From an uncultured Bacteroidales bacterium (GTDB lineage: Bacteria > Bacteroidota > Bacteroidia > Bacteroidales > P3), in NCBI GenBank assembly GCA_900319865.1, contig ONQD01000001.1, positions 62,001-126,000 on the forward strand: DNA of 64,000 nucleotides. The letters run 5' to 3'. The notes under the pieces are model-generated. The model was not told the origin of the DNA and did no database searches. It was given only the letters and a program-made list of their open reading frames with translations. Positions 42,800-57,485 of this stretch are shown in pieces. Positions within the stretch are counted from its first letter, which is position 1. Every line of letters begins with the position of its first letter. The translations under genes were made by a program, and so were the position numbers.

Positions 42800-42831
42800 A
42801 TATGGATTATGTCGCCGCGCCAACATAAAGG

Positions 42832-43269
42832 TACAAGCGTCACCGCGCCAGCGTCCCCATTTCAAAGGGGTGCCACGACAGTGGCGGGGTATGTATCCCG
42901 CTGGCGGAGCCAGCACAAATCACAATAGTCCTCTTTTAAATACAATATGGACTTTCTGCATTTGTTTTACAATACATACCCCCCGGCTCCGCCGTACCCC
43001 TTTCGAAAGGGGACGCGCAGTAGCAGTCCATCTGTCTCTTGCTAAGGATACTGAATGTAGATACAAGCGTCACCGCGGCAGCGTCCCCTTTCGAAAGGGG
43101 TGCCACGACAGTGGCGGGGTATGTATAACGCTGGCGGAGCCAGCACATATCACAAAAGTCCTATTTAAAAAAATAATTGGACTTTCTACATCTGTTTTCA
43201 GCTACATACCCCCCGGCTCCGCCGTACCCCTTTCGAAAGGGGACGCGCGGTAGCAGCCCGTCTGTCTCT
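42832..43269. repeat. Two direct 208-bp repeat units, each with internal inverted arms
   Basis: Units 42832-43039 and 43062-43269 (230-base period) start TACAAGCGTCACCGCG and end TCTGTCTCT. Inside each, a left arm (GCGTCCCC ... GGGGTGCCAC ... GGCGGGGTATGTA) and a right arm (TACATACCCCCCGGC ... CCCC ... GGGGACGCGC) are imperfect inverted copies. The palindrome CCCCTTTCGAAAGGGG occurs at 42997-43012, 43085-43100 and 43227-43242 and is decayed in the first left arm (42855-42870). Smaller hairpins such as GCTGGC-GGA-GCCAGC lie between arms. No ORF or transposase. Confidence 0.85.
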
Positions 43270-43834: not shown

Positions 43835-45055
43835 ATGGCAAAACCGACATGTATAGATTTGTTTGCAGGCTGCGGAGGGCTCTCCCTCGGTCTGTACCTT
43901 GCTGGATGGCAAGGGATTTTTGCCATTGAGAAAAATGCTTTCCCTTTTGAGACGCTAAAGCACAACCTTGTCGACAATAAGAAGCATTTCGATTGGCCTG
44001 ACTGGCTTCCTCAAACCAATCACGACATTAACGAGGTGCTTGAGAAATACCAAGACCAACTGAGAGCCTTGCGTGGCAAGGTGGATTTGGTGGCTGGCGG
44101 ACCTCCTTGTCAAGGGTTTTCTATGGCGGGAAAACGAGTCGAAGACGATGTGCGCAACCAGTTGGTCTTCTCCTACATCAAGTTCATCGATTTGGTGCGT
44201 CCCCACATGCTCCTTTTTGAGAATGTGAAGGGTTTTACCTATGCTTTCGACAGAAAGAACGCTAGCAACGCTGAGCCTTATTCGCGCAAGGTGATTCGAG
44301 GACTACAAGGATTGGGGTATAACGTCAAGCCGCATGTTTTTGACTTCTCCAACTATGGTGTTCCACAGCGTCGCAAACGCTTCATCCTTGTGGGAATTCA
44401 AGAAGGATTAGGGTCTCCCGACAACTTTGAACAACTGCTATTGGCTCATCGTGACGCTTTCTTAAAAAGCAAAGGGTTAAAATCTACGGCTACGCTACAT
44501 GAGGCCATATCCGATTTGCTACGCAGCAATGGAGAGCTACCTACGCCAGACCGAAAAGGATTCAATTCGGGAATCTATGGCAAAGGGAGAATCAGCAATT
44601 ACGCAAAGGTGATGCGTGGGGATTATCCAAAGATGCATACCATTCCCGACAGTCATAGCTTTGCCCACCACACATCTGAAAAGACTGCATTATTCCAACG
44701 CCTCCTGTCCGAATATCAACCCAGAGGCAAGCGCATTGATGGAACAGCCCGCGAAGCCTGGGGCATCAAGCAGCGTGGAATAACAGTATTAGACCCCAAT
44801 GCTGTTTCGCCAACTATTACCGGGTTGCCAGATGACTACCTACACTATTCAGAACCCCGCATTATGACAGTCCGAGAGTGTGCACGTATTCAGTCATTCC
44901 CCGATTGGTATGAGATAAAAGCAAAATACACCACCGGTGGCAAGATGCGTAAACTTGAAGTCCCCCGCTACTCTCAAGTCGGTAATGCTATACCCCCGTT
45001 GTTCGCAGAACAGGCCGGAATCGTATTAAAGGAGATGTTGCAGAATGAAAGATAA
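43835..45055 (+). CDS. DNA cytosine-C5 methyltransferase 1
   Basis: 406 residues with the ordered C5-MTase motifs: I (DLFAGCGGLSLGLYLAGW), IV (GGPPCQGFSMAGKR, catalytic Cys), VI (LFENVKGF), VIII (VPQRRKRFILVG) and X (SQVGNAIPPLFAEQAG); the variable target-recognition stretch lies about 245-330. Methylates C5 of cytosine in an unknown site. All motifs intact. It overlaps the next gene by 11 bases (45045-45055), so the pair is translationally coupled. A palindrome sits directly upstream. Confidence 0.95.
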   Translation: MAKPTCIDLFAGCGGLSLGLYLAGWQGIFAIEKNAFPFETLKHNLVDNKKHFDWPDWLPQTNHDINEVLEKYQDQLRALRGKVDLVAGGPPCQGFSMAGKRVEDDVRNQLVFSYIKFIDLVRPHMLLFENVKGFTYAFDRKNASNAEPYSRKVIRGLQGLGYNVKPHVFDFSNYGVPQRRKRFILVGIQEGLGSPDNFEQLLLAHRDAFLKSKGLKSTATLHEAISDLLRSNGELPTPDRKGFNSGIYGKGRISNYAKVMRGDYPKMHTIPDSHSFAHHTSEKTALFQRLLSEYQPRGKRIDGTAREAWGIKQRGITVLDPNAVSPTITGLPDDYLHYSEPRIMTVRECARIQSFPDWYEIKAKYTTGGKMRKLEVPRYSQVGNAIPPLFAEQAGIVLKEMLQNER

Positions 45056-47447
45056 CCTACAATTCCGTGTTAGTGCAGAACTGAAAAACATTCTGGGTCG
45101 GGATTTGATAACAAGTCCTGACATCGCCATATTAGAGTTGGTCAAAAACTCATACGATGCCCACGCCACCAAAGTGGAAATCACATTTGATAAAGATTAT
45201 CTGTGCATTGCGGATAATGGCAAGGGCATGACAAAAGACGATTTAATCAATAAATGGCTATTTGTCGCCTATTCTGCCAAAAGCGATGGAACAGAAGACA
45301 AATCTTATCGCAGCAAATTCAAACGCCATTATGCAGGTGCCAAAGGAATCGGTCGTATGTCATGCGACCGTCTGGCACAAAATCTAACCCTTACCACACG
45401 CAGTGAGGAGTCTAAAACCGAGGTACTTCACGTGGATTGGAGTGTGTTTGAAAAAAATAGGCAGACCGAGTTTGACACAGTAGATATTCCTCATGAGACA
45501 TTGGACACGATACCACAATTTCCATTAGGGTATCCGACGGGAACGATATTGGATTTTACTGGATTACATACTTCCTGGCGTCGAGATGACATCAAACGGC
45601 TTCGGAAGTCTCTGGAAAAAATGATTAATCCATTCTCAGGAACAGATGATAACTTCCAGATAGAAATAATCGCTCCAGAGATGATAGAAGAAGACTCTCA
45701 GATAGAATCTAAACACGACAAAGTGAATGGTATAATTGAAAACTCCATCGCTGATGTCTTGAAACTAAAAACCACACAGATAGAGAGCCATATTCTAGGC
45801 GGAACAATTCACACGACTTTAAAAGATCGCGGAATTCTCATGTACGAAATTGAAGAACCCAATACCGATTTCTCCCAATTAGATTCCGCTTCTATAAGTC
45901 TTTTTTTCTTGAATCGTGCTGCCAAGTATTCATTTACTTCAATGATGGGAGTTCAACCAGTCAGTTATGGGAATGTATTACTATTTAGAAATGGATTTCG
46001 TATTCTGCCTTATGGCAATTGGAACGATGACAGTTGGGGATTAAATCAACGCCAACAGCAAGGATACAATCGCTTCCTCGGCACCCGTGACTTATTTGGA
46101 CGGGTTGATATCGAAACGGACAATCCCGAATTAATCAAAGAGGTTTCCAGTCGTGACGGTGGCTTGATAGAAACAGAAGCATCCCAACAATTGATGGAAT
46201 ATTTCACATTAATCCATCGTCGGTTGGAGAGATATGTAGTCGGTGTATTGTGGGGAGAGGGCTTCCTGAGAAAGGAATATTTCGTCAGTCAAGGTCACGC
46301 ATTGGATGCACGGAAACAATTGGAAGATGATAAAGATTCCGATTCCGCAAAACATCTATATTCAAATATCGGTAGCAAAGTCGACTTCCTTCAACTCATA
46401 AAATCTCTTGTCAACGACAAGTCCATCAATGTAATTCAATACAATGAAGATTTGGCCAACATTGTAGCTGACCCTACGGACACCGAGGTAATTCAGGCAC
46501 AGATGATTGATGATGTCCGTAAGTTGGCAGAAAAAACCAACGATCCCTACTTGCAGGATAGGATTGCGGAGTTTGAGAAGCACATGGACGAGTTGCGTCG
46601 CCAAAAGGAAGAGGCGGAACGGGAAGCAGAGGCGGAGCGCAGGGCAAAAGAGGCGGCAGAACGAAAAGCAACAGAAGAGCGTAGGGCGAAGGAACAAGCA
46701 GAACTTAAGGTTAAAGAGGAAGAGGAAAAACGCAAAAAAGTTGAAGTAGAATTAAAACAGCGAACGAAACAAAACCTATTTCTGCAATCTGTTGGGAGTC
46801 TTGACACCGACCGTATATTAAAATACCATCATGACATCCGCATTCATGCAGCAACAATACATAACACTATTGGACAGATTTTAAGAAAAGCGAGTCAGGG
46901 CTCATTGTCAATAGAGGATACTATCAAGATGATTGAACGTATTTCCCGCGCTAATGACAAGATAACCTCTATCGCCCAATTTGCCACCAAAGCGAACTAC
47001 AGCATCAATGCAGACACAATTCATGCAGATATTGTAAATTACATCGATGAATATATCAACAATGTACTGCCGGAGTTCTATGGGGACCTTAAGATGCACT
47101 GCATCAGTAATACTTGTTCTAAAAATCTTGACTTTTCTCCATTGGAAGCATGCATTTTTATAGACAATTTGGTGTCTAATTCGGTAAAAGCAAACGCAAA
47201 ACACTTTGATGTGGCCTTTGAGAACGACAATGATGCAGTATGTATGACCATCTCGGATGATGGCGACGGCCTATCACCAGATATTGCCGACCCTAATAGC
47301 ATTCTGGAGAAAGGTTATACAACAACCAATGGTTCCGGATTAGGCCTCTATAATGTGGCCTCATTTGTCAAAACGGTTATGCATGGCTCTGTTTCTGTTG
47401 AAAACAAGTTGGGCAAGCAGGGATTTAAACTAAAAATAAAATTCTAA
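45045..47447 (+). CDS. Protein with two GHKL ATPase modules: Hsp90/MORC-like N-terminus and histidine-kinase-like C-terminus
   Basis: 800 residues. N-terminal Bergerat ATPase: N-box ELVKNSYDAH (31-40), G1 IADNGKGM (55-62), G2 YAGAKGIGRMS (96-106), followed by an uncharacterised middle (110-500) and a highly charged coiled coil (about 505-585, repeats of EAERRAKEAAERKA). The C-terminal part looks like a complete kinase core: a candidate phosphoacceptor segment YHHDIRIHAATIHN (His595/His596), N-box IDNLVSNSVKAN (706-717), G1 ISDDGDGLS (736-744) and G2 GSGLGLYNV (763-771). No membrane segment, so it is cytoplasmic. It is flanked by methyltransferase 1 (11-base overlap) and a response-regulator gene 5 bases downstream, its probable partner. 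Two GHKL modules in one chain are uncommon; sensing of DNA or phage is inference. Confidence 0.85.
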   Translation: MKDNLQFRVSAELKNILGRDLITSPDIAILELVKNSYDAHATKVEITFDKDYLCIADNGKGMTKDDLINKWLFVAYSAKSDGTEDKSYRSKFKRHYAGAKGIGRMSCDRLAQNLTLTTRSEESKTEVLHVDWSVFEKNRQTEFDTVDIPHETLDTIPQFPLGYPTGTILDFTGLHTSWRRDDIKRLRKSLEKMINPFSGTDDNFQIEIIAPEMIEEDSQIESKHDKVNGIIENSIADVLKLKTTQIESHILGGTIHTTLKDRGILMYEIEEPNTDFSQLDSASISLFFLNRAAKYSFTSMMGVQPVSYGNVLLFRNGFRILPYGNWNDDSWGLNQRQQQGYNRFLGTRDLFGRVDIETDNPELIKEVSSRDGGLIETEASQQLMEYFTLIHRRLERYVVGVLWGEGFLRKEYFVSQGHALDARKQLEDDKDSDSAKHLYSNIGSKVDFLQLIKSLVNDKSINVIQYNEDLANIVADPTDTEVIQAQMIDDVRKLAEKTNDPYLQDRIAEFEKHMDELRRQKEEAEREAEAERRAKEAAERKATEERRAKEQAELKVKEEEEKRKKVEVELKQRTKQNLFLQSVGSLDTDRILKYHHDIRIHAATIHNTIGQILRKASQGSLSIEDTIKMIERISRANDKITSIAQFATKANYSINADTIHADIVNYIDEYINNVLPEFYGDLKMHCISNTCSKNLDFSPLEACIFIDNLVSNSVKANAKHFDVAFENDNDAVCMTISDDGDGLSPDIADPNSILEKGYTTTNGSGLGLYNVASFVKTVMHGSVSVENKLGKQGFKLKIKF

Positions 47448-47452
47448 CGATT

Positions 47453-48343
47453 ATGAATTTGAAATACCGAATACTGTGGATTGAGAACGCGGAAGATTGG
47501 GTAGAGAGCATTGAAGACCAAATTCAAGAATACCTTGAAGATCTGGGGTTCATTTACGAAAGAAAACTGATTGCCAAAGAAGATCAAGACATCAGCTATA
47601 ATGATTATGACTTAATCCTTATGGATTTAAATCTTGCTGACCAACCAAATGGTGCAGAACTCATCTCTAAAATACGTGAGTTAGGTGTTTATACAGATGT
47701 CGTATTCTATTCAGCGAGTGGTATAGACGAATTGAGAGCCAAAGGAAGGGAGAAAGAGCTTGAGGGTGTATTCTACAGTGGTCGCACCCCAGATACAGCA
47801 TTTGTGAATAGAGTAAAGGCTGTCATTGACGCCACGCTCAAGAAAGTTCAAGACCTGAACAATCTGCGAGGATTGGTGATGGCTGAAGTCAGTGAACTTG
47901 ATGCGTTGATGGATAAAATCATACCCTCTTATTTCAACACGGAGGAAAGAATGGTGTTGTTCCACAAGCATATTACTGCCAACAGAGAGAAAACACTTCA
48001 GAAATCATTAAATTGCAACAACAAATGCCAGCTTTCATGGCGAGGCATTGACATTCAAGAGATAGTACCTCAGTTAGACTCGTCACAAAAAGCCCGTGCA
48101 ATAAAATTAATTCTTGAACAGGGCAAGCCAGATTTGAATAAAGATGGCAACTTCTACGAAGAATATGTAGTGGCAATTATTATTCCTCGGAATGAGTTGG
48201 CACATTGTAAAAGCGAAATACGCGAAGGCAAAGAAATTCTACTGACTAGAAAAGGGGATAAATGTTTTGATGAGTATTTCTTTAAGGATATACGCAAAAA
48301 CATATTGAAGTATTCAGGTATTTTTAATGAACTTTTGAAATAA
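47453..48343 (+). CDS. Response-regulator receiver protein with HEPN-like C-terminal region
   Basis: 296 residues. Residues 1-130 form a receiver domain: acidic patch RILWIENAEDW (6-16), phosphoacceptor Asp58 in DLILMDLNL, switch Ser/Thr strand DVVFYSASG (82-90); the usual Lys after strand 5 appears to be Arg (YSGRTPD, 108-114). The C-terminal 165 residues are mostly helical with no DNA-binding motif, and contain PRNELAHCK with R246-x4-H251, the spacing and the Asn after Arg that mark HEPN ribonucleases. It may thus be an RNase effector switched by phosphorylation from the upstream kinase-like protein. Its stop abuts the ATG of methyltransferase 2. The REC call is strong, the HEPN call tentative. 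Confidence 0.8.
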   Translation: MNLKYRILWIENAEDWVESIEDQIQEYLEDLGFIYERKLIAKEDQDISYNDYDLILMDLNLADQPNGAELISKIRELGVYTDVVFYSASGIDELRAKGREKELEGVFYSGRTPDTAFVNRVKAVIDATLKKVQDLNNLRGLVMAEVSELDALMDKIIPSYFNTEERMVLFHKHITANREKTLQKSLNCNNKCQLSWRGIDIQEIVPQLDSSQKARAIKLILEQGKPDLNKDGNFYEEYVVAIIIPRNELAHCKSEIREGKEILLTRKGDKCFDEYFFKDIRKNILKYSGIFNELLK

Positions 48344-49408
48344 ATGTCCAAAAAGAAATATAACGTTTTAGATTTATTCTGTGGGTGTGGCGGCTTGTCA
48401 AAAGGATTCGAGATGGCGGGTTACAACATTGTATTAGGTGTTGATTTTAATGAACCCGCCCTTAAAACATACGCTTATAATCATAAAGGAAGCAAAACGC
48501 TTTGTGGAGATTTAGCGGATCCAAACACCTTTGATAAGATAGATTATCTACTGGGAAGGAAAAAAGTTGACGTTATTATTGGAGGTCCTCCATGTCAAGG
48601 TTTTAGTTTAACAGGACCAAGGCAGTTTGATGATAAAAGAAACAAACTATACCTTGCCATGATAGAAACAGTACGGCGCTATAAACCGAAGGCCTTTTTG
48701 ATTGAAAATGTCCCCGGTATGGCCACACTATATAAAGGTGAAGTAAAAGATGAAATTGTAAGACGTTTTACGGCAATGGGATACACTGTAAACACCCAGA
48801 TTCTTTGTTCTGCCGATTATGGTGTTCCGCAGATTCGCAAACGGCTAGTATTTGTTGGGTTGTTAGACAGAAAAGAAAAATTTCAATTCCCGGCGCCCTA
48901 TCTTAAACCAGAAGAATATATTACTTGCGAACAGGCAATAGGGGATCTCCCCAGTTTAGAACACACTCTTGGAGATGATGTGTCTGAGTACGAGAAAGAA
49001 CCGTTCTCCGATTATCAAAAACTTATGAGAGGTCAATGCAACGTGTTGCACAACCATAAATCCATAGATCACAAACAATTCGTCAAGGACACTATCGCAT
49101 TGGTTCCGGATGGCGGTAACTGGAAGGATTTACCTCCTGGAGTAGGTGAGAGCAGAAACTTTCATATGGCATGGACAAGATATTGCAGTTTCAAGCCATC
49201 AAGGACGATAGATACTGGCCATAGAAATAACTTCCATTATAAATGGAATAGATGTCCAACTGTTAGAGAAAGTGCACGTCTTCAATCGTTCCCCGATGAT
49301 TTTATCTTCTTAGGAACAAAGGGGCAGCAAGATAAGCAGGTGGGCAATGCCGTACCTTGCCTTATGGCCAAAGCTGTGGGCATACAATTGCTAAAATACT
49401 TGAAATAA
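48344..49408 (+). CDS. DNA cytosine-C5 methyltransferase 2
   Basis: 354 residues. Motifs I (DLFCGCGGLSKGFEMAGY), IV (GGPPCQGFSLTGPRQ), VI (LIENVPGM), VIII (VPQIRKRLVFVG), IX (CPTVRESARLQSFPDDF) and X (KQVGNAVPCLMAKAVG) are intact. Target-recognition region about 190-285. Starts directly after the receiver-protein stop and shares one base (TAATG) with methyltransferase 3. Confidence 0.95.
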   Translation: MSKKKYNVLDLFCGCGGLSKGFEMAGYNIVLGVDFNEPALKTYAYNHKGSKTLCGDLADPNTFDKIDYLLGRKKVDVIIGGPPCQGFSLTGPRQFDDKRNKLYLAMIETVRRYKPKAFLIENVPGMATLYKGEVKDEIVRRFTAMGYTVNTQILCSADYGVPQIRKRLVFVGLLDRKEKFQFPAPYLKPEEYITCEQAIGDLPSLEHTLGDDVSEYEKEPFSDYQKLMRGQCNVLHNHKSIDHKQFVKDTIALVPDGGNWKDLPPGVGESRNFHMAWTRYCSFKPSRTIDTGHRNNFHYKWNRCPTVRESARLQSFPDDFIFLGTKGQQDKQVGNAVPCLMAKAVGIQLLKYLK

Positions 49409-50649
49409 TGTCGAAGAGAAAATATAATACGATAGACCTGTTCGCTGGATGTGGAGGATTAATGGATGGATTTATGCAAGAGGGTGGGTTCAACACATTG
49501 GCCTGTGTTGAGTGGGAAACGTATCCATGTCTTACAATTGCGAATAGACTCGAAAAAAAATGGCTCCATAAAAACGCAAAAGAGGAGGTTGTCCGATTCG
49601 ATATTCAACGCACGGAAGAACTAATAAACGGCTTTGATGATAAAGAATACGGAAAACATGTTGGACTTGATAAGATAATTGGAGGGGAAAAAGTTGATGT
49701 TGTGATTGGAGGTCCCCCATGCCAAGCATATTCTTTAGCCGGTCGCATAAGAGACCCATATGGTATGAAGAATGACTATAGGAACTATTTGTTTGAGAGC
49801 TATATTCGGATCTTGGAATATTACAATCCGAAATTCTTTATTTTTGAAAATGTTGTCGGAATGCTTAGTGCAGCACCAGACGGGACGCCAATCGTCAATC
49901 GAATAAAAAAAGCATTTGACGATGCAGGCTATTGTGTGATAGATGATTTTAAAGACGCAGTTTTTGATGTTGCAGATTATGGAATACCACAACATAGAAA
50001 ACGTGTCATTATACTGGGTATAAACAAGCGATCATTCTCCAAACAAGACAATATTGGCAATAAGATACTGGATGATTTTTACAATGTCATTATGCCGAAA
50101 TATCGGGAGCAGGCAAAACAAAGAACAGTAAGAGATGCCATTGGCGACTTACCTGCATTAATGCCAAGTAAAGATATTATCATCCATAATGGACATAAGT
50201 TTTCTCATATTCCTATAGATGGAGGTGGCATTTTGAATCACGAACCCCGTTTCCATAATGAAAGAGATCAGAAAATATTTGCCATGTTAGGGGAAGACAT
50301 CGCATCTGAGAGAAATGAATTTGTTTCTATTGAGTCATTAAAAGCATTATATACTAAAATGACTGGGAAAAAGAGTAATATACATAAATATTATGTTCTC
50401 CGTTGGGATGAGCCTAGCAACACTATTCCTGCGCATCTATACAAAGATGGTATGAGGCATATTCATCCAGATCCAAAACAAGCTCGCTCAATCACAGTAC
50501 GAGAAGCTGCCCGACTACAAACGTTCGATGATGATTTCGAATTGATCGGCCCCATGATGGAACAATACAAAATGGTGGGCAATGCCGTTCCATCAGCCTT
50601 TGCTTTTATTATTGCAGATGCATTAAAAAAGATTATTGATAGATACTAA
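49408..50649 (+). CDS. DNA cytosine-C5 methyltransferase 3
   Basis: 413 residues from the ATG at 49408. Motifs I (DLFAGCGGLMDGFMQEGG), IV (GGPPCQAYSLAGR, with Ala-Tyr in place of Gly-Phe), VI (FENVVGM), VIII (IPQHRKRVIILG), IX (SITVREAARLQTFDDDF) and X (YKMVGNAVPSAFAF). An in-frame upstream ATG at 49357 lies inside methyltransferase 2 and is rejected. Methyltransferases 2 and 3 side by side before a nuclease suggest the two strands of one asymmetric site, or two recognition sites. Confidence 0.94.
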   Translation: MSKRKYNTIDLFAGCGGLMDGFMQEGGFNTLACVEWETYPCLTIANRLEKKWLHKNAKEEVVRFDIQRTEELINGFDDKEYGKHVGLDKIIGGEKVDVVIGGPPCQAYSLAGRIRDPYGMKNDYRNYLFESYIRILEYYNPKFFIFENVVGMLSAAPDGTPIVNRIKKAFDDAGYCVIDDFKDAVFDVADYGIPQHRKRVIILGINKRSFSKQDNIGNKILDDFYNVIMPKYREQAKQRTVRDAIGDLPALMPSKDIIIHNGHKFSHIPIDGGGILNHEPRFHNERDQKIFAMLGEDIASERNEFVSIESLKALYTKMTGKKSNIHKYYVLRWDEPSNTIPAHLYKDGMRHIHPDPKQARSITVREAARLQTFDDDFELIGPMMEQYKMVGNAVPSAFAFIIADALKKIIDRY

Positions 50650-50653
50650 TGCC

Positions 50654-51667
50654 ATGTTATATTATACTGATCTAGAGAAAAAAGTATTTGATTTGTCGCT
50701 TAACAGTCAAATTAACGAGTATGTAATAATTTCTGGTTACGTGGGGAGCGAACCTATCAGACAACTATCAACTCTTCCAAGAGAAATACACAAAACAGTA
50801 ATTTACGGAATGTATGGAAGCGATAATATTTCTGCCCCTCTCCATCAAACATTAATAAATATCCATCAAAACATTGAAAACATTGATATTTTGTACTCAA
50901 CTATTCCTATTCACTCTAAGATATACATGGGGCTTTTAGACAATTCTATTGTCAAAGGGTTTATCGGTTCGGCCAATTTTTCTATAAATGGTTTACGGAA
51001 TGATTTCAAGGAAGTATTAGCAGATATAGACAATAGTACATTCCCTAATTATGAGATATATCTAAATTATGTGAAGGAACATAGTATTCCTTGTATAGAT
51101 AAAAGTATTAAAGTACGAAAAATAGTAAAGATTCCACGCACAACTCTAAAAGTTCAACCATTAATTGCGAATAATATTTGTCGAGCAACCTTATTAGATA
51201 ATATGGGCTTAGTCCCTGAGAAATCTGGATTAAATTGGGGCTTGAGTAAGGGTCATGTTTCTGCAGGCGATGCATATATTCCAATAAGATTAAGTTATAT
51301 CCGTATGTTCCCTAAAATATTTCCCCCTAAGAAATATATTGATGGAATCGTAAATACTAATACTACAGGGAAAAAGAACAGGGAAAATGATGAAGTAGAA
51401 TTAATTTGGGATGATGGTACTGTTATGGTTGGCCTACTTGAAGGGCAAGCCTACAATAAAGATGACGGTATGATATACCCAAAGCAACTAAGCTCAAGCC
51501 CACAAAAATCCATCATGGGGAAATATTTACGGAATAGACTTGGAGTTTCCTTAAATCATACTATAACCAAAACTGATTTGTTACGATACGGACGATCTCA
51601 TATTGATATTAGCTTAATTTCTGATGGTGTCTATTATATGGACTTTTCTGTTAATCGATCAAAATAA
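50654..51667 (+). CDS. PLD-fold restriction endonuclease, NgoFVII-like
   Basis: 337 residues from the ATG at 50654. One phospholipase-D half-site: PIHSKIYM (H87, K89) and KGFIGSANFSINGL (S106, N108), the arrangement of BfiI/NgoFVII-type nucleases, which pair two chains into one metal-independent active site. The remaining about 200 residues presumably recognise DNA. It follows methyltransferase 3 by 4 bases, so it is the likely restriction partner. A TTG start at 50636 overlapping the methyltransferase is possible but weaker. Confidence 0.85.
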   Translation: MLYYTDLEKKVFDLSLNSQINEYVIISGYVGSEPIRQLSTLPREIHKTVIYGMYGSDNISAPLHQTLINIHQNIENIDILYSTIPIHSKIYMGLLDNSIVKGFIGSANFSINGLRNDFKEVLADIDNSTFPNYEIYLNYVKEHSIPCIDKSIKVRKIVKIPRTTLKVQPLIANNICRATLLDNMGLVPEKSGLNWGLSKGHVSAGDAYIPIRLSYIRMFPKIFPPKKYIDGIVNTNTTGKKNRENDEVELIWDDGTVMVGLLEGQAYNKDDGMIYPKQLSSSPQKSIMGKYLRNRLGVSLNHTITKTDLLRYGRSHIDISLISDGVYYMDFSVNRSK

Positions 51668-51672
51668 TTAAT

Positions 51673-53463
51673 ATGTCACTTTTCGAAGATTCTTCTCCTA
51701 TTTGCAGAGGGAAAAACCTTACATGGGAAACAATTATATTGTTCTTCAACAATATGCCCAAAAAACCCATGCCCAAGAACCAATTTAATTCATTTGTTGA
51801 ATCGCGTATAAAGGCATGGACACAAACACATAGTCAAATTGCGAGACAACTGGCTTTTTATTATGAAAAAGATGGGATTTGCTATCCTAGATTTGATGAA
51901 CGGACCACATATGCAGAGCTTTTTTCTTATGTTCAAAGTTGGGCTTCAAAATATTTCATCCCCAATCCCTATGCACCAAGTTTAAAAGGTCAAAAGCCCA
52001 CTTGCATATATTCTTATGTTGTCAAAGCAGTCCAAGAAGGGAAGAATAATTTTGATGAAATTGTTGATTCAATTTTTGGAATCAAACTAAGCAGTCACGA
52101 TAAGTTGATTGTATTCCTCTCGAATTTTACAGATATATTAATTGACGAAGACCATAACGTCTCCATTAATGACAAGTTATATCCCATTAATTCAGAATTA
52201 TATCCAAATGAAGTCTATGCGCAAGACCCTTCACTATATTTTAATTATTTCTCCCAAGTAACAAAAAACAATCTTCCTCAAATAAAACTCCATGAACGAG
52301 AAATAAACCCTGTCTTTTCTATATATCTCACCGCCTTGCGGACGAAGCCGTTTATGTTGCTGGCAGGGATTTCGGGAACGGGGAAGAGCCGTATTGTGAG
52401 GGAGATGGCCAAGGCATGTTGGAAACCCGAAGACGACGAATACTGGAAGGACAAGGATAAACAAATAAGGAATAACCACCCGAGGAACTTCTGCATGGTA
52501 CAGGTAAAACCCAACTGGCACGACAGTAGCGAGCTGATAGGCTATGTGTCGCGACTAAGTGGAGAGAAGTTCGTGGTGGGGCCTTTCCTGCGCTTCCTGG
52601 CGGCTGCACTCAAAGAACCCGATGTGCCTTACTTCCTATGCCTCGACGAGATGAACCTTGCCCCTGTGGAGCAGTACTTCGCCGAATATTTGTCGGTCAT
52701 CGAGAGCCGCAAAGTAAATGAAGACCCGGTGTCCGGGCAGACAATAATAGAAACCGATCCAATCATCCCTTATGAGAACACTGATGCCTACGGTAGCTTG
52801 ATAGACCAACTGTTTGACACACCAGAGGAGCGCAAGGCCTATAAAACAGAAAAGGGTGGAAAGCGTTTGACCATACCGCAGAACCTCTTTGTGGTGGGCA
52901 CGGTGAATATGGACGAGACCACCTTCTCGTTCAGCCGCAAGGTGCTGGACCGCGCTATGACCATAGAGATGAACGAGGTGGATTTGCATGGCGGTCTGGA
53001 GAAAGACTCCGGCAACGAAATTGGCTCTATCGGCAATAGCATTATCGGCGATGCCGCCGAGGGTAGCGACGTGTATGAGGCGAACAAGGAGTTGTGCGAT
53101 GAGGTGCTGGCCTACTTGGAGAAGGTGAACTCCATACTGGAGCGCACGCCTTTCAAGATAGCCTACCGCACAAGGAACGAGTTCCTGATGTACGCCGTGA
53201 ACAGAAAGATACTGGCAGAGGACAGCCAACTGTGGCAGACACTGGACGAGATGACGAGCATGAAAATCCTCTCACGCATAGAGGGCGACGAAGAACGCAC
53301 CCAGAAAGTGCTGAAGGAACTGAAGGACCTGGTGAAGGCGGAAATAGAAGACCATATCCCACCAGCCGAAGAGGGCAAGACTGCCCCCGAGAGCATATCG
53401 GCAAAGAAGATAGAAGAGATGCTGAATAAACTGAGCTCCGGATTCACCAGCTACTGGACATAA
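51673..53463 (+). CDS. McrB-like AAA+ NTPase
   Basis: 596 residues. Residues 1-215 are a variable N-terminal domain without recognised fold; then a McrB/dynein-related AAA+ domain: Walker A AGISGTGKSR (Lys238), Walker B FLCLDEMNLAP (Asp325, Glu326), the segment TVNMDETTFSFSRKVLDRA (412-425; McrB has NTAD at this place) with probable arginine finger. Known McrB proteins translocate DNA and drive an McrC nuclease; here the DUF2357 protein two genes on is the likely partner. Base composition switches from AT-rich to GC-richer near 52320 (about residue 217), exactly before the AAA+ domain. Located 5 bases after the PLD nuclease. Confidence 0.85.
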   Translation: MSLFEDSSPICRGKNLTWETIILFFNNMPKKPMPKNQFNSFVESRIKAWTQTHSQIARQLAFYYEKDGICYPRFDERTTYAELFSYVQSWASKYFIPNPYAPSLKGQKPTCIYSYVVKAVQEGKNNFDEIVDSIFGIKLSSHDKLIVFLSNFTDILIDEDHNVSINDKLYPINSELYPNEVYAQDPSLYFNYFSQVTKNNLPQIKLHEREINPVFSIYLTALRTKPFMLLAGISGTGKSRIVREMAKACWKPEDDEYWKDKDKQIRNNHPRNFCMVQVKPNWHDSSELIGYVSRLSGEKFVVGPFLRFLAAALKEPDVPYFLCLDEMNLAPVEQYFAEYLSVIESRKVNEDPVSGQTIIETDPIIPYENTDAYGSLIDQLFDTPEERKAYKTEKGGKRLTIPQNLFVVGTVNMDETTFSFSRKVLDRAMTIEMNEVDLHGGLEKDSGNEIGSIGNSIIGDAAEGSDVYEANKELCDEVLAYLEKVNSILERTPFKIAYRTRNEFLMYAVNRKILAEDSQLWQTLDEMTSMKILSRIEGDEERTQKVLKELKDLVKAEIEDHIPPAEEGKTAPESISAKKIEEMLNKLSSGFTSYWT

Positions 53464-53501
53464 TATCCAATCATTATTAAACGCTATTAGACATAAAAAC
53501 T

Positions 53502-55352
53502 ATGATGACTTGTCGGGAGATAAAAGAGTTGCTGCTATATGGCGAAAGCATCCATCTGGAATGCAAAGAGTGTCGGGTAGACATTCCAAAATCAGTATGG
53601 GAGACTTATTCGTCGTTTGCTAACACTTACGGGGGTGTAATACTATTGGGGGTGCATGAGGATGTCAACGAGCCTGACATGAGGAAACGGTTCACCATAG
53701 CTGGCGTGTCCGATAAGTCGAGAGTTATCGGGAATTTCTGGAATACCATTAACGGCGACAAGACAAATGTTAATATACTGAAAGACGAGAATGTATACGC
53801 TGTTAATGTCGATGGCAAAGAGGTTGTTGTAATTGACATACCGCAGGCCGATTATCGGCAACGCCCTGTGTACATAAATGGGAATCCCATAAAAGGCACT
53901 TTCAAAAGGACATACGAGGGAGACTATCATTGCAACGAGGTTGAGGTCAGGGCAATGCTTCGCGACGCAAACGAACAGGGATGCGACGGAATGCTCATTG
54001 AGGACTACACTATGGACGATGTTGACCTCACCTCGCTACATGCCTACCGCAACGAATTCGCCGTGAGGAATCAAGTACACGCATTCAACCAACTTGACGA
54101 CAAGACCTTTCTAAAAAGCATTGGTGGCTATACTGCCAACCGCAAGCAAAAGCAGGAGGGGCTGACATTGGCAGGGTTGCTTATGTTTGGAAAAGGATTG
54201 TCCATAAGAGAGCGGCTTGACAATATCAGGATGGATTATATAGACAAGACCAATCTTGCCGATGGTCAGCGATGGAGTGACCGCATAACATACGATGGCA
54301 CATGGGAGAACAACCTATACAACTTCTTTCATATAGTTGTTGGCAAACTGACAACAGGCCTAAAAAAGCCATTTGTTCTGAAGGGTATTGCCAGAGAGGA
54401 TGACTCGCCAGTGTTCCGAGCAGTGCGCGAGGCGGTGACAAATATGATTATCCACGCCGATTATATGATAACTGGTGTCTTGCGCGTAGAGAGAAGAGAG
54501 AATCTTTTTTACTTCTCCAATCCCGGTAGTCTACGAATCCCTGTAGAGAGGATTTACGAAGGGAATCACACCGCAGCCCGTAATCCAAAGCTGCAGGACA
54601 TGTTCCGTATGATAGGCTATGGCGATAATATCGGTAGCGGATTTCCTACCATACTGGATGCTTGCAGACAAGAGCAGTGGCGCAAACCTGATATGAAAGA
54701 GATTCCTGATTTGAGAACTGTCGACCTGAAAATATGGATGGTATCCATGATGCCAGAAGAGATTATTACCAAACTCCACGATATGTATGGAAACTCATTC
54801 GACCAACTGAATGGTATAGAAAAAAGGGTGTTGGCAACAACTATGCTTGAAGAGGAGATTGACAACGGCACCATTCAGACGTTGCTTGAACAGAACTCAT
54901 TGGATGTTGGACATCTGCTTTCCCATCTGGTTGAACAACAGTTTTTGGTATCGGATGGCAAAGGACGCTGGACGATGTATCAGGTTAACAAGAATTATCT
55001 TGAAAGTACTGCACAAGATACTGCACAAGATACAAAACTGAAAAACAGCGATATACAAAATACTGCACAAGATACTGCACAAGATACTGCACAAGATACT
55101 GCACAAGGTACTAGACAAGATACTGCACAAGAAAAGTCACTGAGAAAAATCCATCAAGAGAAACTCATAATCGCTTTTTGTAAAGAGCCTCATACTTTGA
55201 AAGAAATAGCCGCTCACTTGAAATACAAAAATACCCGATGGCTACGGGAGGTATACATCAATCCTCTACTTGGAACACAACTTTGGATGACTATTCCTGA
55301 TGCTCCCACAAGTGGCAACCAAAAATACACTTCTATACCCCCTAAAGAATAA
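53502..55352 (+). CDS. AlbA_2/schlafen-type protein with C-terminal ATP-binding region and TAQD repeats
   Basis: 616 residues. N-terminal AlbA_2 domain (HLECKECRVDIPKSVWETYS, NTYGGVILLGVHED, residues 18-54), then the HATPase_c_4-like region (AVREAVTNMIIHADYM near 308-322, FYFSNPGSLRIPVERIYEG, YGDNIGSGFPTI) usually annotated as RecG-like ATP-dependent DNA helicase or transcriptional regulator; no helicase motifs are seen. Residues 503-545 are a low-complexity TAQD repeat (12-base unit), followed by a winged-helix-like tail. It separates the McrB-like gene from its presumed nuclease partner. Role in the system unknown. Confidence 0.8.
   Translation: MMTCREIKELLLYGESIHLECKECRVDIPKSVWETYSSFANTYGGVILLGVHEDVNEPDMRKRFTIAGVSDKSRVIGNFWNTINGDKTNVNILKDENVYAVNVDGKEVVVIDIPQADYRQRPVYINGNPIKGTFKRTYEGDYHCNEVEVRAMLRDANEQGCDGMLIEDYTMDDVDLTSLHAYRNEFAVRNQVHAFNQLDDKTFLKSIGGYTANRKQKQEGLTLAGLLMFGKGLSIRERLDNIRMDYIDKTNLADGQRWSDRITYDGTWENNLYNFFHIVVGKLTTGLKKPFVLKGIAREDDSPVFRAVREAVTNMIIHADYMITGVLRVERRENLFYFSNPGSLRIPVERIYEGNHTAARNPKLQDMFRMIGYGDNIGSGFPTILDACRQEQWRKPDMKEIPDLRTVDLKIWMVSMMPEEIITKLHDMYGNSFDQLNGIEKRVLATTMLEEEIDNGTIQTLLEQNSLDVGHLLSHLVEQQFLVSDGKGRWTMYQVNKNYLESTAQDTAQDTKLKNSDIQNTAQDTAQDTAQDTAQGTRQDTAQEKSLRKIHQEKLIIAFCKEPHTLKEIAAHLKYKNTRWLREVYINPLLGTQLWMTIPDAPTSGNQKYTSIPPKE
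55008..55134 (+). repeat. In-frame 12-bp tandem repeat (ACTGCACAAGAT)
   Basis: About nine copies or near-copies encoding Thr-Ala-Gln-Asp, in two blocks split by KLKNSDIQN. Copy number changes would keep the frame, so the linker can change length. Confidence 0.85.
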
Positions 55353-55358
55353 CCATTT

Positions 55359-57485
55359 ATGGACCTCCTGCGCATAGAACACGAAGACTTCACGCTGACG
55401 GTGGAGAGCACCCAGTTCCAACGGATGTGGGACAAGGGGGAGCACATACTCGGCAGGGAGAGGTTGAAATCCCCCTACCGATGGAGCGACGGGGTAGAGT
55501 CTGTACAGTTGGTTCATGATGGCGTGGAACAGGATATAACAATGGACGATGCCGATGCGGAAGCAATATTCTTTGAGCAGACAGACTACAGTGTTTGGGT
55601 GGACTTCAAGAAGAAGGTGGCAAAAGTTTGGTTCGACAGTCCGAGGAAGGATGTCAATGACCGCTTCTCGTGGAAGGAGAGCAAGCAACTGCTAGCGGGA
55701 TTCCTGAACTACGGCAACGAGATTGGGCGTGCCGACATGCCGATAGTCTACACCCTTGACGGGGTGCAGAAACGCTTTGTATTCTCCTACGATGTTATCT
55801 CGGCCAAACTGGACTATCACAACGATTGGAAGGCGATAATCAAAGACATTGAGGCGGAATACCGCATGCTCTCGCTAGACTACTTGAAACGCACCTATCA
55901 CGGCATTAAGGAGGAGAAGGGCGAGAGTTACGACATCATTTGGTGGAATGTTTTTGCAAGCAAGCAGGAGCAGTTTCTGCGCACTGTCCACACCATTATA
56001 GACCGTCCACGCCACCGCCTGAAAGGAATAGAGACCTACAAACGTGCCGACCAGATACGCCGTTTCACTCCACAACTGGAGCAACAACTGGCCGAGCACC
56101 GCACGGAGGAGGCCCGCCTGTACCGCGTGGAGGAACAACAGAACACCTACAACACTCCGGAGAACCGATTTCTGAAACACGCCCTGCTGACGGTGCAGAA
56201 ACGATATGCATTCCTTGCCAAGAGGGTTTTGGCTCAGGAAACCAATCTGGCCGAAACCCATAGGGATCGGATTGCAAGCATACGTGACGAGCTGAACCGA
56301 CTGTCGCGCCACCCATTCTTCCGCACCGTGGGGCCATTTGACGGCATAAAACAGGAATCGCTCATCCTGCAAAAGGATGTGAATTACTCAAAAATATTCA
56401 GCATTTACACAATACTGAAGAAATCATTCAGCCTGAACGACGGCCTCTACCGCATGGAGACCAAGGACATTGCAACCCTATACGAGATATGGTGCTTCAT
56501 CCAGGTGGAGAAGGTGGTCAAAGAGCTGACCGGCATAGAACCCGAACAAGACAATCGCGTGGAGATGAGCGGAATCTTCGCCTATAACTTGAGGAAGGGG
56601 GAACACTCGAAGATTATCTTCAAGAAAGACGATGTGACACTTGCTGAACTGGTGTACAATCCCAGACACAGCGACAAGGACGATGTGAAAGGTATTGGAG
56701 ACTTGGAATCAAAGACAGTTCCACAGAAGCCGGATATTGTACTTCAGCTGACCAAAGACGACCTGCAGCAGGGCATGAAACTCACCTACCTCTTCGATGC
56801 CAAATACCAACTTGAGAAGGATGGTGCGAACGATGTGCCACCCGACGACGCCATCAACCAAATGCACCGCTACCGTGACGCAATATATTATCATAGCAAA
56901 CTCCACGACGAAAAGATAAAGAAAGAGGTTATCGGTGGCTACATCCTCTTCCCCGGACTGATGGACGACACCTCGCGCTTCCGCCGCAGCATTGACGAGG
57001 TGAACATCGGAGCCTTCCCCATGCGCCCAGGAGACAATCAGCATGAGTTGCTGGCCGCCTTTATCAAGGATTTGTTGGACAGACATGCCGTGGAAATAGT
57101 AGAACAGGTAATCCCTCAGAAAGGGACCTCCTTGGAAATAAAGAGGCGTGTGCTCGTCGGGATAGTCAAGCCCGACAACCCACAGTACGACAATTTCAAG
57201 AACGGCACAGCAACCTATTATTATTCTGGTGACACTTTCCCCTCGACTATTGCCATTGACGGCATTGACTATTTTGCACCCTATTTTTCGGGACTCGGCA
57301 TCAGAGACTTATACGAGGTGGTGAGGATACACACAGATACCAAGGCCAAAGGCGAGGGAGACGATAAACTAAGAATAACCTTCGACCTAAAATATAGTCG
57401 ACAACTACAAAAGGACTACCAAAATGTGAAATTGCCCATACTACACAGCTATGCCGACACAACTATAGACAGTTTGCCTATATAG
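55359..57485 (+). CDS. DUF2357 protein with PD-(D/E)xK nuclease domain (McrC-like)
   Basis: 708 residues. N-terminal DUF2357 beta region and a helical stalk (about 140-330), then a nuclease core: LYEIWCF (Glu376), QKPDIVLQL (Asp459) and LFDAKYQL (Asp480-x-Lys482), followed by MHRYRDAIYYH. This matches McrC-type nucleases that act with McrB-like ATPases. It starts 6 bases after the AlbA_2 gene and is the last gene of the island. Expected role: cleavage of modified or foreign DNA upon ATPase translocation (family knowledge). Confidence 0.87.
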   Translation: MDLLRIEHEDFTLTVESTQFQRMWDKGEHILGRERLKSPYRWSDGVESVQLVHDGVEQDITMDDADAEAIFFEQTDYSVWVDFKKKVAKVWFDSPRKDVNDRFSWKESKQLLAGFLNYGNEIGRADMPIVYTLDGVQKRFVFSYDVISAKLDYHNDWKAIIKDIEAEYRMLSLDYLKRTYHGIKEEKGESYDIIWWNVFASKQEQFLRTVHTIIDRPRHRLKGIETYKRADQIRRFTPQLEQQLAEHRTEEARLYRVEEQQNTYNTPENRFLKHALLTVQKRYAFLAKRVLAQETNLAETHRDRIASIRDELNRLSRHPFFRTVGPFDGIKQESLILQKDVNYSKIFSIYTILKKSFSLNDGLYRMETKDIATLYEIWCFIQVEKVVKELTGIEPEQDNRVEMSGIFAYNLRKGEHSKIIFKKDDVTLAELVYNPRHSDKDDVKGIGDLESKTVPQKPDIVLQLTKDDLQQGMKLTYLFDAKYQLEKDGANDVPPDDAINQMHRYRDAIYYHSKLHDEKIKKEVIGGYILFPGLMDDTSRFRRSIDEVNIGAFPMRPGDNQHELLAAFIKDLLDRHAVEIVEQVIPQKGTSLEIKRRVLVGIVKPDNPQYDNFKNGTATYYYSGDTFPSTIAIDGIDYFAPYFSGLGIRDLYEVVRIHTDTKAKGEGDDKLRITFDLKYSRQLQKDYQNVKLPILHSYADTTIDSLPI

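Follow-up and report, generated by a model that had tools for sequence, protein, structure and literature searches.

The window analysed here is a stretch of 64,000 nucleotides from an uncultured Bacteroidales bacterium (NCBI GenBank assembly GCA_900319865.1, contig ONQD01000001.1, positions 62,001 to 126,000), and our subject is a group of three adjoining genes in it that encode a C5-cytosine DNA methylase, a histidine-kinase-like protein with two GHKL ATPase modules and a receiver protein. Positions are those of the window, and all genes and domains named below lie on the + strand. The methylase, M1 (43835..45055; 406 amino acids; PF00145, 1.4e-53), opens a tight run of genes, and its end overlaps the start of the kinase gene by 11 bases. 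The open reading frames (ORFs) of the kinase (45045..47447; 800 amino acids) and of the receiver protein (47453..48343; 296 amino acids) are 5 bases apart, exactly as delimited in an earlier reading of the letters by a model (the original prediction). Both were characterized by Pfam, structure models and Foldseek, and judged by profile scores their Pfam matches are far from chance.

The kinase joins two ATPase modules in one soluble protein. Its N-terminal HATPase_c_3 domain (residues 24-147, 45114..45485) was matched at 3.4e-27 and its C-terminal HATPase_c or CA domain (PF02518; residues 706-793, 47160..47423), with N, G1 and G2 boxes, at 5.3e-21. Both families were matched by all 56 aligned kinases, which are the window's own and those of 55 of the 80 loci described below. 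The GHKL motif residues of the first ATPase (E31, N35, D57, G59, G61, G98, G101 and G103) are invariant (56/56), as are N712, G765 and G767 of the second, where D738 is kept in 53/56; from these residues both sites look active. The names N, G1, G2 and H-box are used for kinase residues in their usual sense. An AlphaFold2 model built from the 56 sequences (predicted local distance difference test (pLDDT) 77.9, predicted template modelling score (pTM) 0.52, region 76-102 below 50) shows the GHKL module followed by a strand-rich, transducer/S5-like second part (residues about 244-372, 45774..46160, limits approximate), a long charged coiled-coil helix (501-554, 46545..46706), a DHp-like helical hairpin (586-617 and 623-647, 46800..46985) and the alpha/beta CA domain. 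Foldseek matched the model to MutL, GyrB, Hsp90 and SMCHD1, and to the histidine kinase HK853 (6rfv_B, E 1.1e-8, TM-score 0.57 by target, 238 columns), a match that also supports the hairpin. The N-terminal ATPase (of Hsp90/MutL type; Hsp90/MORC-type in the original prediction), the coiled coil and the histidine-kinase CA domain that had been predicted are confirmed, and a soluble protein with two GHKL modules and an H-box-like helix bearing an invariant His is likewise borne out.

The candidate phosphorylated residue is His596 (46830..46832), which is located in the first helix of the hairpin and is invariant (56/56). The original prediction had offered His595 or His596; the second stands, whereas position 595 is H in 25/56. 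It had also made its case depend on a predicted four-helix dimerisation domain around residue 595; the single-chain model has a DHp-like two-helix hairpin around 596, and the structural ground for refutation thus did not arise.

The next gene had been described as encoding a receiver with Asp58, which is correct for the domain and the residue; the protein is not a lone receiver, as a C-terminal domain of 163 residues follows. Its model (pLDDT 92, pTM 0.85) comprises a (beta-alpha)5 receiver (REC) domain (residues 1-132, 47453..47848) and then a helical domain (residues 134-296, 47852..48340). The model had 108 matches in the PDB at E <= 0.001, and the 50 matches listed are all receivers or receiver proteins, while the Pfam match to Response_reg (1.1e-5, 26 bits) falls under the cut-off of 30.2. 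Across an alignment of 51 receivers (the window's and all 50 class A relatives defined below), D58 (47624..47626), the candidate phosphoacceptor, is invariant together with D53 and Y86, and S or T occupies position 87 in 49/51. The acidic pair is represented by E or D at position 11 in 51/51 and by D (37/51) or N (14/51) at position 12. Pfam scans of the protein found no DNA-binding output domain.

The C-terminal domain is, in our judgement, probably a HEPN domain, which would make it a probable metal-independent RNase. In the excerpted text of the HEPN survey (Anantharaman et al., 2013; PMC3710099), the superfamily is defined by an Rx4-6H motif with a polar second residue at the end of helix 3, and Csx1 is described with a beta hairpin just after the motif. 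R246-N-E-L-A-H251 (48188..48205) is an Rx4H motif that fits this definition, including the polar residue following R. R246 and H251 are invariant (51/51), N247 is kept in 48/51 (I in 3), and D or E is found at position 150 in 49/51. As read from the secondary structure of the model, the motif closes the helix 234-250 and is followed, after H251, by a hairpin (253-264) and a last helix (274-295), a topology that agrees with the survey both in where the motif lies, at the end of helix 3, and in the Csx1-like hairpin after it. Profile evidence comes from the relatives. When 48 such domains (47 of the 50 class A proteins represented) were scanned against 24,736 Pfam models at E <= 10, 95 families were matched by some of them; among the 25 families listed, those with most members were HEPN_RiboL-PSP (8/48, best 2.8e-4), HEPN_MAE_28990 (6) and HEPN_Swt1 (5), followed by Abi_2 and Effector_1 (3/48 each). 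Profile-profile alignment with hhalign against 7 RiboL-PSP members (7 of 14 hits) gave a local score of 28.3, compared with at most 16.5 in 60 column shuffles, 14.3 for the reversed profile and no more than 20.2 when ten slices of the kinase alignment were used instead. The corresponding comparison with 9 Swt1 members (9 of 10 hits) scored 22.7 against a maximum of 15.2 in 60 shuffles. R and H are in register in the full (extended) alignments with both families.

Relatives of this arrangement are widespread. At E <= 0.001 the receiver protein was matched in 52 of 395 genomes from the phylum, in most cases over no more than its receiver part, and seven genomes beyond the window's fell below 1e-11. 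In five of these seven first relatives the C5 methylase, GHKL kinase and receiver protein lie in one row; in the other two (L034 and L038) the methylase is convergent and lies behind the receiver. A scan of genome contigs with a kinase profile gave at least 509 relatives (586 candidate stretches), of which we retained the 80 most similar; the locus counts given here are therefore not frequencies and are skewed towards Bacteroidota-like kinases. The 80 loci span Bacteroidota, Spirochaetota, Verrucomicrobiota, Pseudomonadota, Bacillota, Campylobacterota, Planctomycetota and other bacterial groups. Two archaeal cases (L086 and L091) come from genomes of the methanogen Methanimicrococcus. A C5 methylase is present in all 80 loci, in 66 of them at most 150 bases upstream on the same strand; Vsr occurs in 18/80 and HNH_2 in 9/80.

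Two kinds of output follow the kinase. Classes were assigned within 150 bases of the kinase end, using profiles derived from the very families being classified (8 receivers, 20 short receivers, 20 effectors). In class A (50/80 loci), the gene after the kinase encodes a receiver-HEPN protein like that of the window. In class B (26/80; L044, L045, L046, L048-L052, L054-L056, L058, L060, L062, L063, L069, L078-L085, L087 and L089), a receiver of less than 250 amino acids is accompanied by a third gene for what we call the GHG...C protein, about 200-270 amino acids long and present in 26/26 (the L062 copy is cut short). No locus has both outputs (0/80). Four loci were assigned to neither class: one ends inside the kinase (L057), one in a receiver-like fragment of 60 residues (L115) and one 569 bases past the kinase, with an ORF that has no receiver match (L072), and the fourth (L117) has a receiver-like ORF of 141 residues. 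On a kinase tree made with FastTree only, the output label is strongly clustered: a minimum of three changes is needed, all forced by starred branches, compared with a mean of 22 for random labels. The sister of the window's group (six class A kinases) is a group that contains 15 kinases of class B. That a single kinase type is combined with different candidate effectors speaks for a signalling role directed at an effector.

The GHG...C protein may be caspase-like and possibly represents a new caspase-like family, an assignment that we regard as tentative. Its G-H-G and C-x-S motifs are invariant in the 20 aligned sequences (20 of 26). Weak Pfam matches were to Peptidase_C25 (3/20, best 0.12) and C50 (1/20), and hhalign against caspase C14 scored 28.6 compared with 20.2 in shuffles, with H and C in register. 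Its best match among PDB sequences, a cytochrome P450 at E 0.005, was taken as noise.

In the nearest relatives, what stays together is M1, the kinase and the receiver-HEPN protein, which probably make up one portable three-gene cassette. In five close loci (L040-L043 and L053), identity to the window is 76-83% for the methylase, 74-83% for the kinase and 56-78% for the receiver protein, and the genes downstream of the three change from locus to locus. At L040, one of the four flanking ORFs scanned encodes a Usp protein and the other three match no Pfam family; several further loci look alone by eye, with few neighbours scanned. A phage-borne cassette was rejected, as a tblastn search with the receiver protein gave no match in 50,697 phage records; parts of the kinase were matched by 91 plasmid records, none of which covers 80% of it. 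The original prediction had placed a phosphorelay inside a restriction system. Its dedicated adjoining receiver is confirmed and a methylase accompanies every locus, but the words 'inside a restriction system' are loose, because the unit retained is methylase-kinase-receiver and the adjoining genes change.

We favour a reading in which the cassette couples a methylase to a suicide effector gated by the kinase, and we give the whole chain a probability of about 0.5. The gene order, the domains, the invariant residues and the mutually exclusive outputs were observed directly, whereas the phosphotransfer and its sign, the RNase activity, the trigger and the antiphage role are inferred. M1 would mark host DNA. 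The MORC/Hsp90-like half of the kinase would sense a signal inside the cell, most probably as a clamp responding to DNA or to the state of the methylase, and its trigger would lead the CA domain to autophosphorylate His596. The phosphate would pass to Asp58, turning the receiver on rather than off and freeing the HEPN domain to cut RNA, and RNA cleavage would stop the cell, an abortive infection that may serve as an antiphage defence. In the sister loci, the same kinase type would act through a short receiver and the separate GHG...C protein, possibly a caspase-like protease. A broader formulation is that the cassette represents a distinct modification-based immunity, in which self is marked by the C5 methylase and, in place of a DNA nuclease, a MORC-type sensor kinase forms the 'restriction' arm, phosphorylating a receiver to release an effector interchangeable by branch (HEPN RNase or caspase-like protease). 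This is possible, and we advance it tentatively.

Several results weigh against this reading. Kinase-to-receiver phosphotransfer is plausible rather than established, because the window receiver lacks the canonical beta 5 Lys (R111 is found in 44/51) and its acidic pair is E11-N12. Receivers that lack even one of the five active-site residues (DD, D, T/S and K) are called pseudo-receivers in the excerpted text of a 2025 perspective (PMC12632262), and by that strict definition the window receiver, as read from its residues, is one. The missing Lys and the E-N pair are the main weakness of the phosphorelay claim; in addition, H596 is followed by Q, D or H in most kinases (38/56) and not reliably by an acidic residue. 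For the HEPN assignment, the window's own C-terminal domain matches no Pfam family at E <= 10, so that the profile support comes from relatives and is weak for each sequence, and one member matches the unrelated PG_binding_4 at 3.1e-4. The hhalign probabilities are low (24-28% for RiboL-PSP and 9% for Swt1), no HEPN protein appears among the 13 PDB sequences matched at E <= 10 in a profile search, and in hhalign's global mode scores of 128-130 were reached by two of the 60 shuffles, compared with 24.6 for the real alignment, values that we took as artefacts. For the GHG...C protein, the caspase comparison is modest (probability 14%), and a CHAT protease was rejected (18.1 compared with 19.3 in shuffles).

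The departures of the receiver from the canonical residues bear on a different mechanism, a nucleotide-driven switch without phosphotransfer, in which the two GHKL modules open and close with ATP and a pseudo-receiver stays docked on the kinase. The absent Lys, the E-N pair and the published definition (PMC12632262, excerpted text) would suit such a switch, while the invariance of H596 and D58 across several phyla speaks against it, and we think it improbable.

The closest described counterpart of the cassette is the HEF_HK/Response_reg_2 pair (Bellieny-Rabelo et al., 2021; PMC8011034). The excerpts of that paper describe kinases with HATPase_c_3, DHp-like and HATPase_c domains, adjacent receivers, and C5 methylases, Vsr and HNH_2 as neighbours. 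The likeness to the window family extends to the same kinase architecture in a soluble protein, the adjoining receiver and the same three kinds of neighbour. The arrangement beside C5 methylases is in this respect not new, having been published in 2021. HEF_HK proteins of six loci share homology with the kinase of the window (profile E 1.3e-39 to 8.9e-46), but they are 966-1001 amino acids long and their receivers 525-567, compared with 800 and 296 in the window. The HEF_HK loci in our set (L120-L126 and L168-L173) are from Bacteroidota; in six of them a methylase-like ORF (identified by eye), the kinase and the receiver follow in order. Receivers of the HEF_HK loci, at 525-575 amino acids, have a long C-terminal part. 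PF19191 (HEF_HK) was matched by none of the 56 kinases at E <= 0.01 and by none of eight (the window's and those of the seven first relatives) at E <= 10; it is absent from the window's genome and present in all seven genomes with a PF19192 match over the cut-off. Among the same eight receivers, the only ones run, PF19192 (Response_reg_2) matched 0/8 at E <= 10 and PF00072 matched 8/8; PF19192 is also absent from the window's genome. With both Pfam tests failed, plain membership of HEF_HK/Response_reg_2 was rejected, and the window pair is, on profile evidence, a homologous but separate sister family within the same system type. No other known domain is reported for the receivers, and the paper's text contains the word HEPN 0 times; the function of these methylase-linked, two-component-like pairs was left open in 2021 because no other known receiver domain had been found, and the authors speculated that the signalling controls restriction-modification (R-M) systems.

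Other systems share parts of the design. The kinase may be related to MORC and paraMORC ATPases, given its HATPase_c_3 match, its fold matches (MutL, SMCHD1, GyrB and Hsp90) and the methylase in 80/80 loci; a putative S5-like module is seen within the whole-protein model. In R-M loci, a paraMORC GHKL ATPase is fused to a Ymh HEPN domain (Anantharaman et al., 2013; PMC3710099, excerpted text), which brings a MORC-like ATPase, a HEPN RNase and an R-M context into one unit, as the window cassette probably does. In that case the HEPN domain is fused to the ATPase, whereas in the window a kinase module and a receiver lie between them. PrrC/PrrI is similar as a HEPN RNase restrained by a DNA-modification system and serving as a second line of defence, and different in that PrrC itself carries an SbcC/Rad50-like ATPase and the R-M system is of type Ic, with no histidine kinase or receiver mentioned in the excerpts (PMC3710099). 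By description only, Detocs is a three-gene defence with a toxic effector, named for a two-component pathway; its best-described effector is an ATP-cleaving PNP, and the excerpted text does not mention a methylase (PMC11249213). CnuA of Type I-B CoCoNuT has a receiver domain inside a restriction-type system with a proposed role in cell death, but that system is of McrBC type and the receiver is joined to a PYD/CARD-like domain; the excerpts mention no dedicated kinase (PMC11090510).

A known PADLOC system was rejected: the window kinase matched only two type II restriction endonuclease models (best 1.2e-14, in the ATPase part) and MzaB (0.003), and the window receiver protein matched no family. 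None of the three is named Detocs, although the presence of Detocs models in that release was unchecked. Across the 51 receivers, PADLOC matches were scattered and weak (PDC-M60B in 6, best 0.0028; single matches to PDC-M01B, Csm6 and Csx1; Cas13a in 2; others). No account of receiver-HEPN proteins turned up in exact-phrase searches of article text, to which figures, supplements, preprints and subscription papers did not belong. HATPase and REC are named in a figure legend of PMC13092281 that covers predicted systems still without validation, and the window family may be among those.

The PrrC precedent also bears on what the cassette would protect. If M1 were lost, inhibited or diluted, the kinase might drive the receiver-HEPN protein to kill the cell, in which case the cassette would be an addiction module guarding its methylase and protecting itself rather than the host. 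No gene type other than the C5 methylase accompanies the kinase in all 80 loci, the four flanking ORFs of L040 (a Usp protein and three unmatched ORFs) showed no nuclease family, and PrrC, which the PrrI R-M system holds inactive, offers a described precedent (PMC3710099, excerpted text). Sequence alone cannot separate such a guard from abortive infection, and both could hold; on balance we consider it unlikely.

Beyond the three genes, the run in the window continues with what are probably other systems stacked in it. M2 (48344..49408; PF00145, 2.2e-68) and M3 (49402..50649; PF00145, 1.2e-53) are second and third C5 methylases outside the conserved unit, of which M2 varies among relatives. 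M3 and the next gene, an NgoFVII-like type II restriction endonuclease with PLD and B3-like parts (50636..51667; PF09565, 2.3e-33; PF20731, 2.6e-35), overlap by 14 bases and, spanning 49402-51667, resemble an ordinary type II R-M pair. A McrB-like AAA ATPase (51673..53463; PF07728, 3.6e-5; PADLOC PDC-M26A, 9.3e-41), a Schlafen/AlbA_2 protein with HATPase_c_4 (53502..55352; PF04326, 5.1e-10; PF13749, 7.4e-10) and a McrC-like DUF2357-PDDEXK_7 nuclease (55359..57485; PF09823, 6.6e-40; PF04411, 9.9e-34) then form in series a type IV-like restriction set (51673-57485). A 12-base coding repeat at 55003-55154 gives rise to TAQD repeats within the AlbA_2 protein and is a possible length-variable site. 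Between dxr and the methylase island lie two tandem copies of 211 bases (42829-43269; 88% alike, 230 bases apart). Repeats as island boundaries were rejected, since the search gave just this upstream pair and the one coding repeat.

This tight run with M2, M3 and the NgoFVII-like and McrBC-like genes could suggest regulation instead of killing, with phosphorylation tuning neighbouring restriction genes or methylases and the C-terminal domain serving as an RNA-binding or dimerisation bundle, as the control of R-M systems suggested in PMC8011034 and the non-catalytic HEPN domains described in PMC3710099 (both in excerpt) would allow; we find it improbable, given that Pfam scans found no DNA-binding output domain, that the adjoining genes differ in the nearest relatives, which also led us to reject a role devoted to regulating the NgoFVII-like or the McrBC-like genes, and that R and H are invariant in 51/51, more than a scaffold would need.

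The preferred reading, a methylase with a kinase-gated suicide effector, changes how this family may be viewed. With its HEPN-like output, which the original prediction missed, the likely role is no longer to steer a restriction enzyme but to drive an effector of cell shutdown. The output of the window family has a candidate active site in R246 and H251, and in a second branch its place is taken by another candidate death effector, so that an architecture without known function becomes experimentally addressable: does a methylase with a phosphorelay lead to RNA cleavage? A positive answer would mean that phosphorylation links DNA modification to a programmed shutdown of the cell, in a cassette that we found across many bacterial phyla and in two archaeal genomes.

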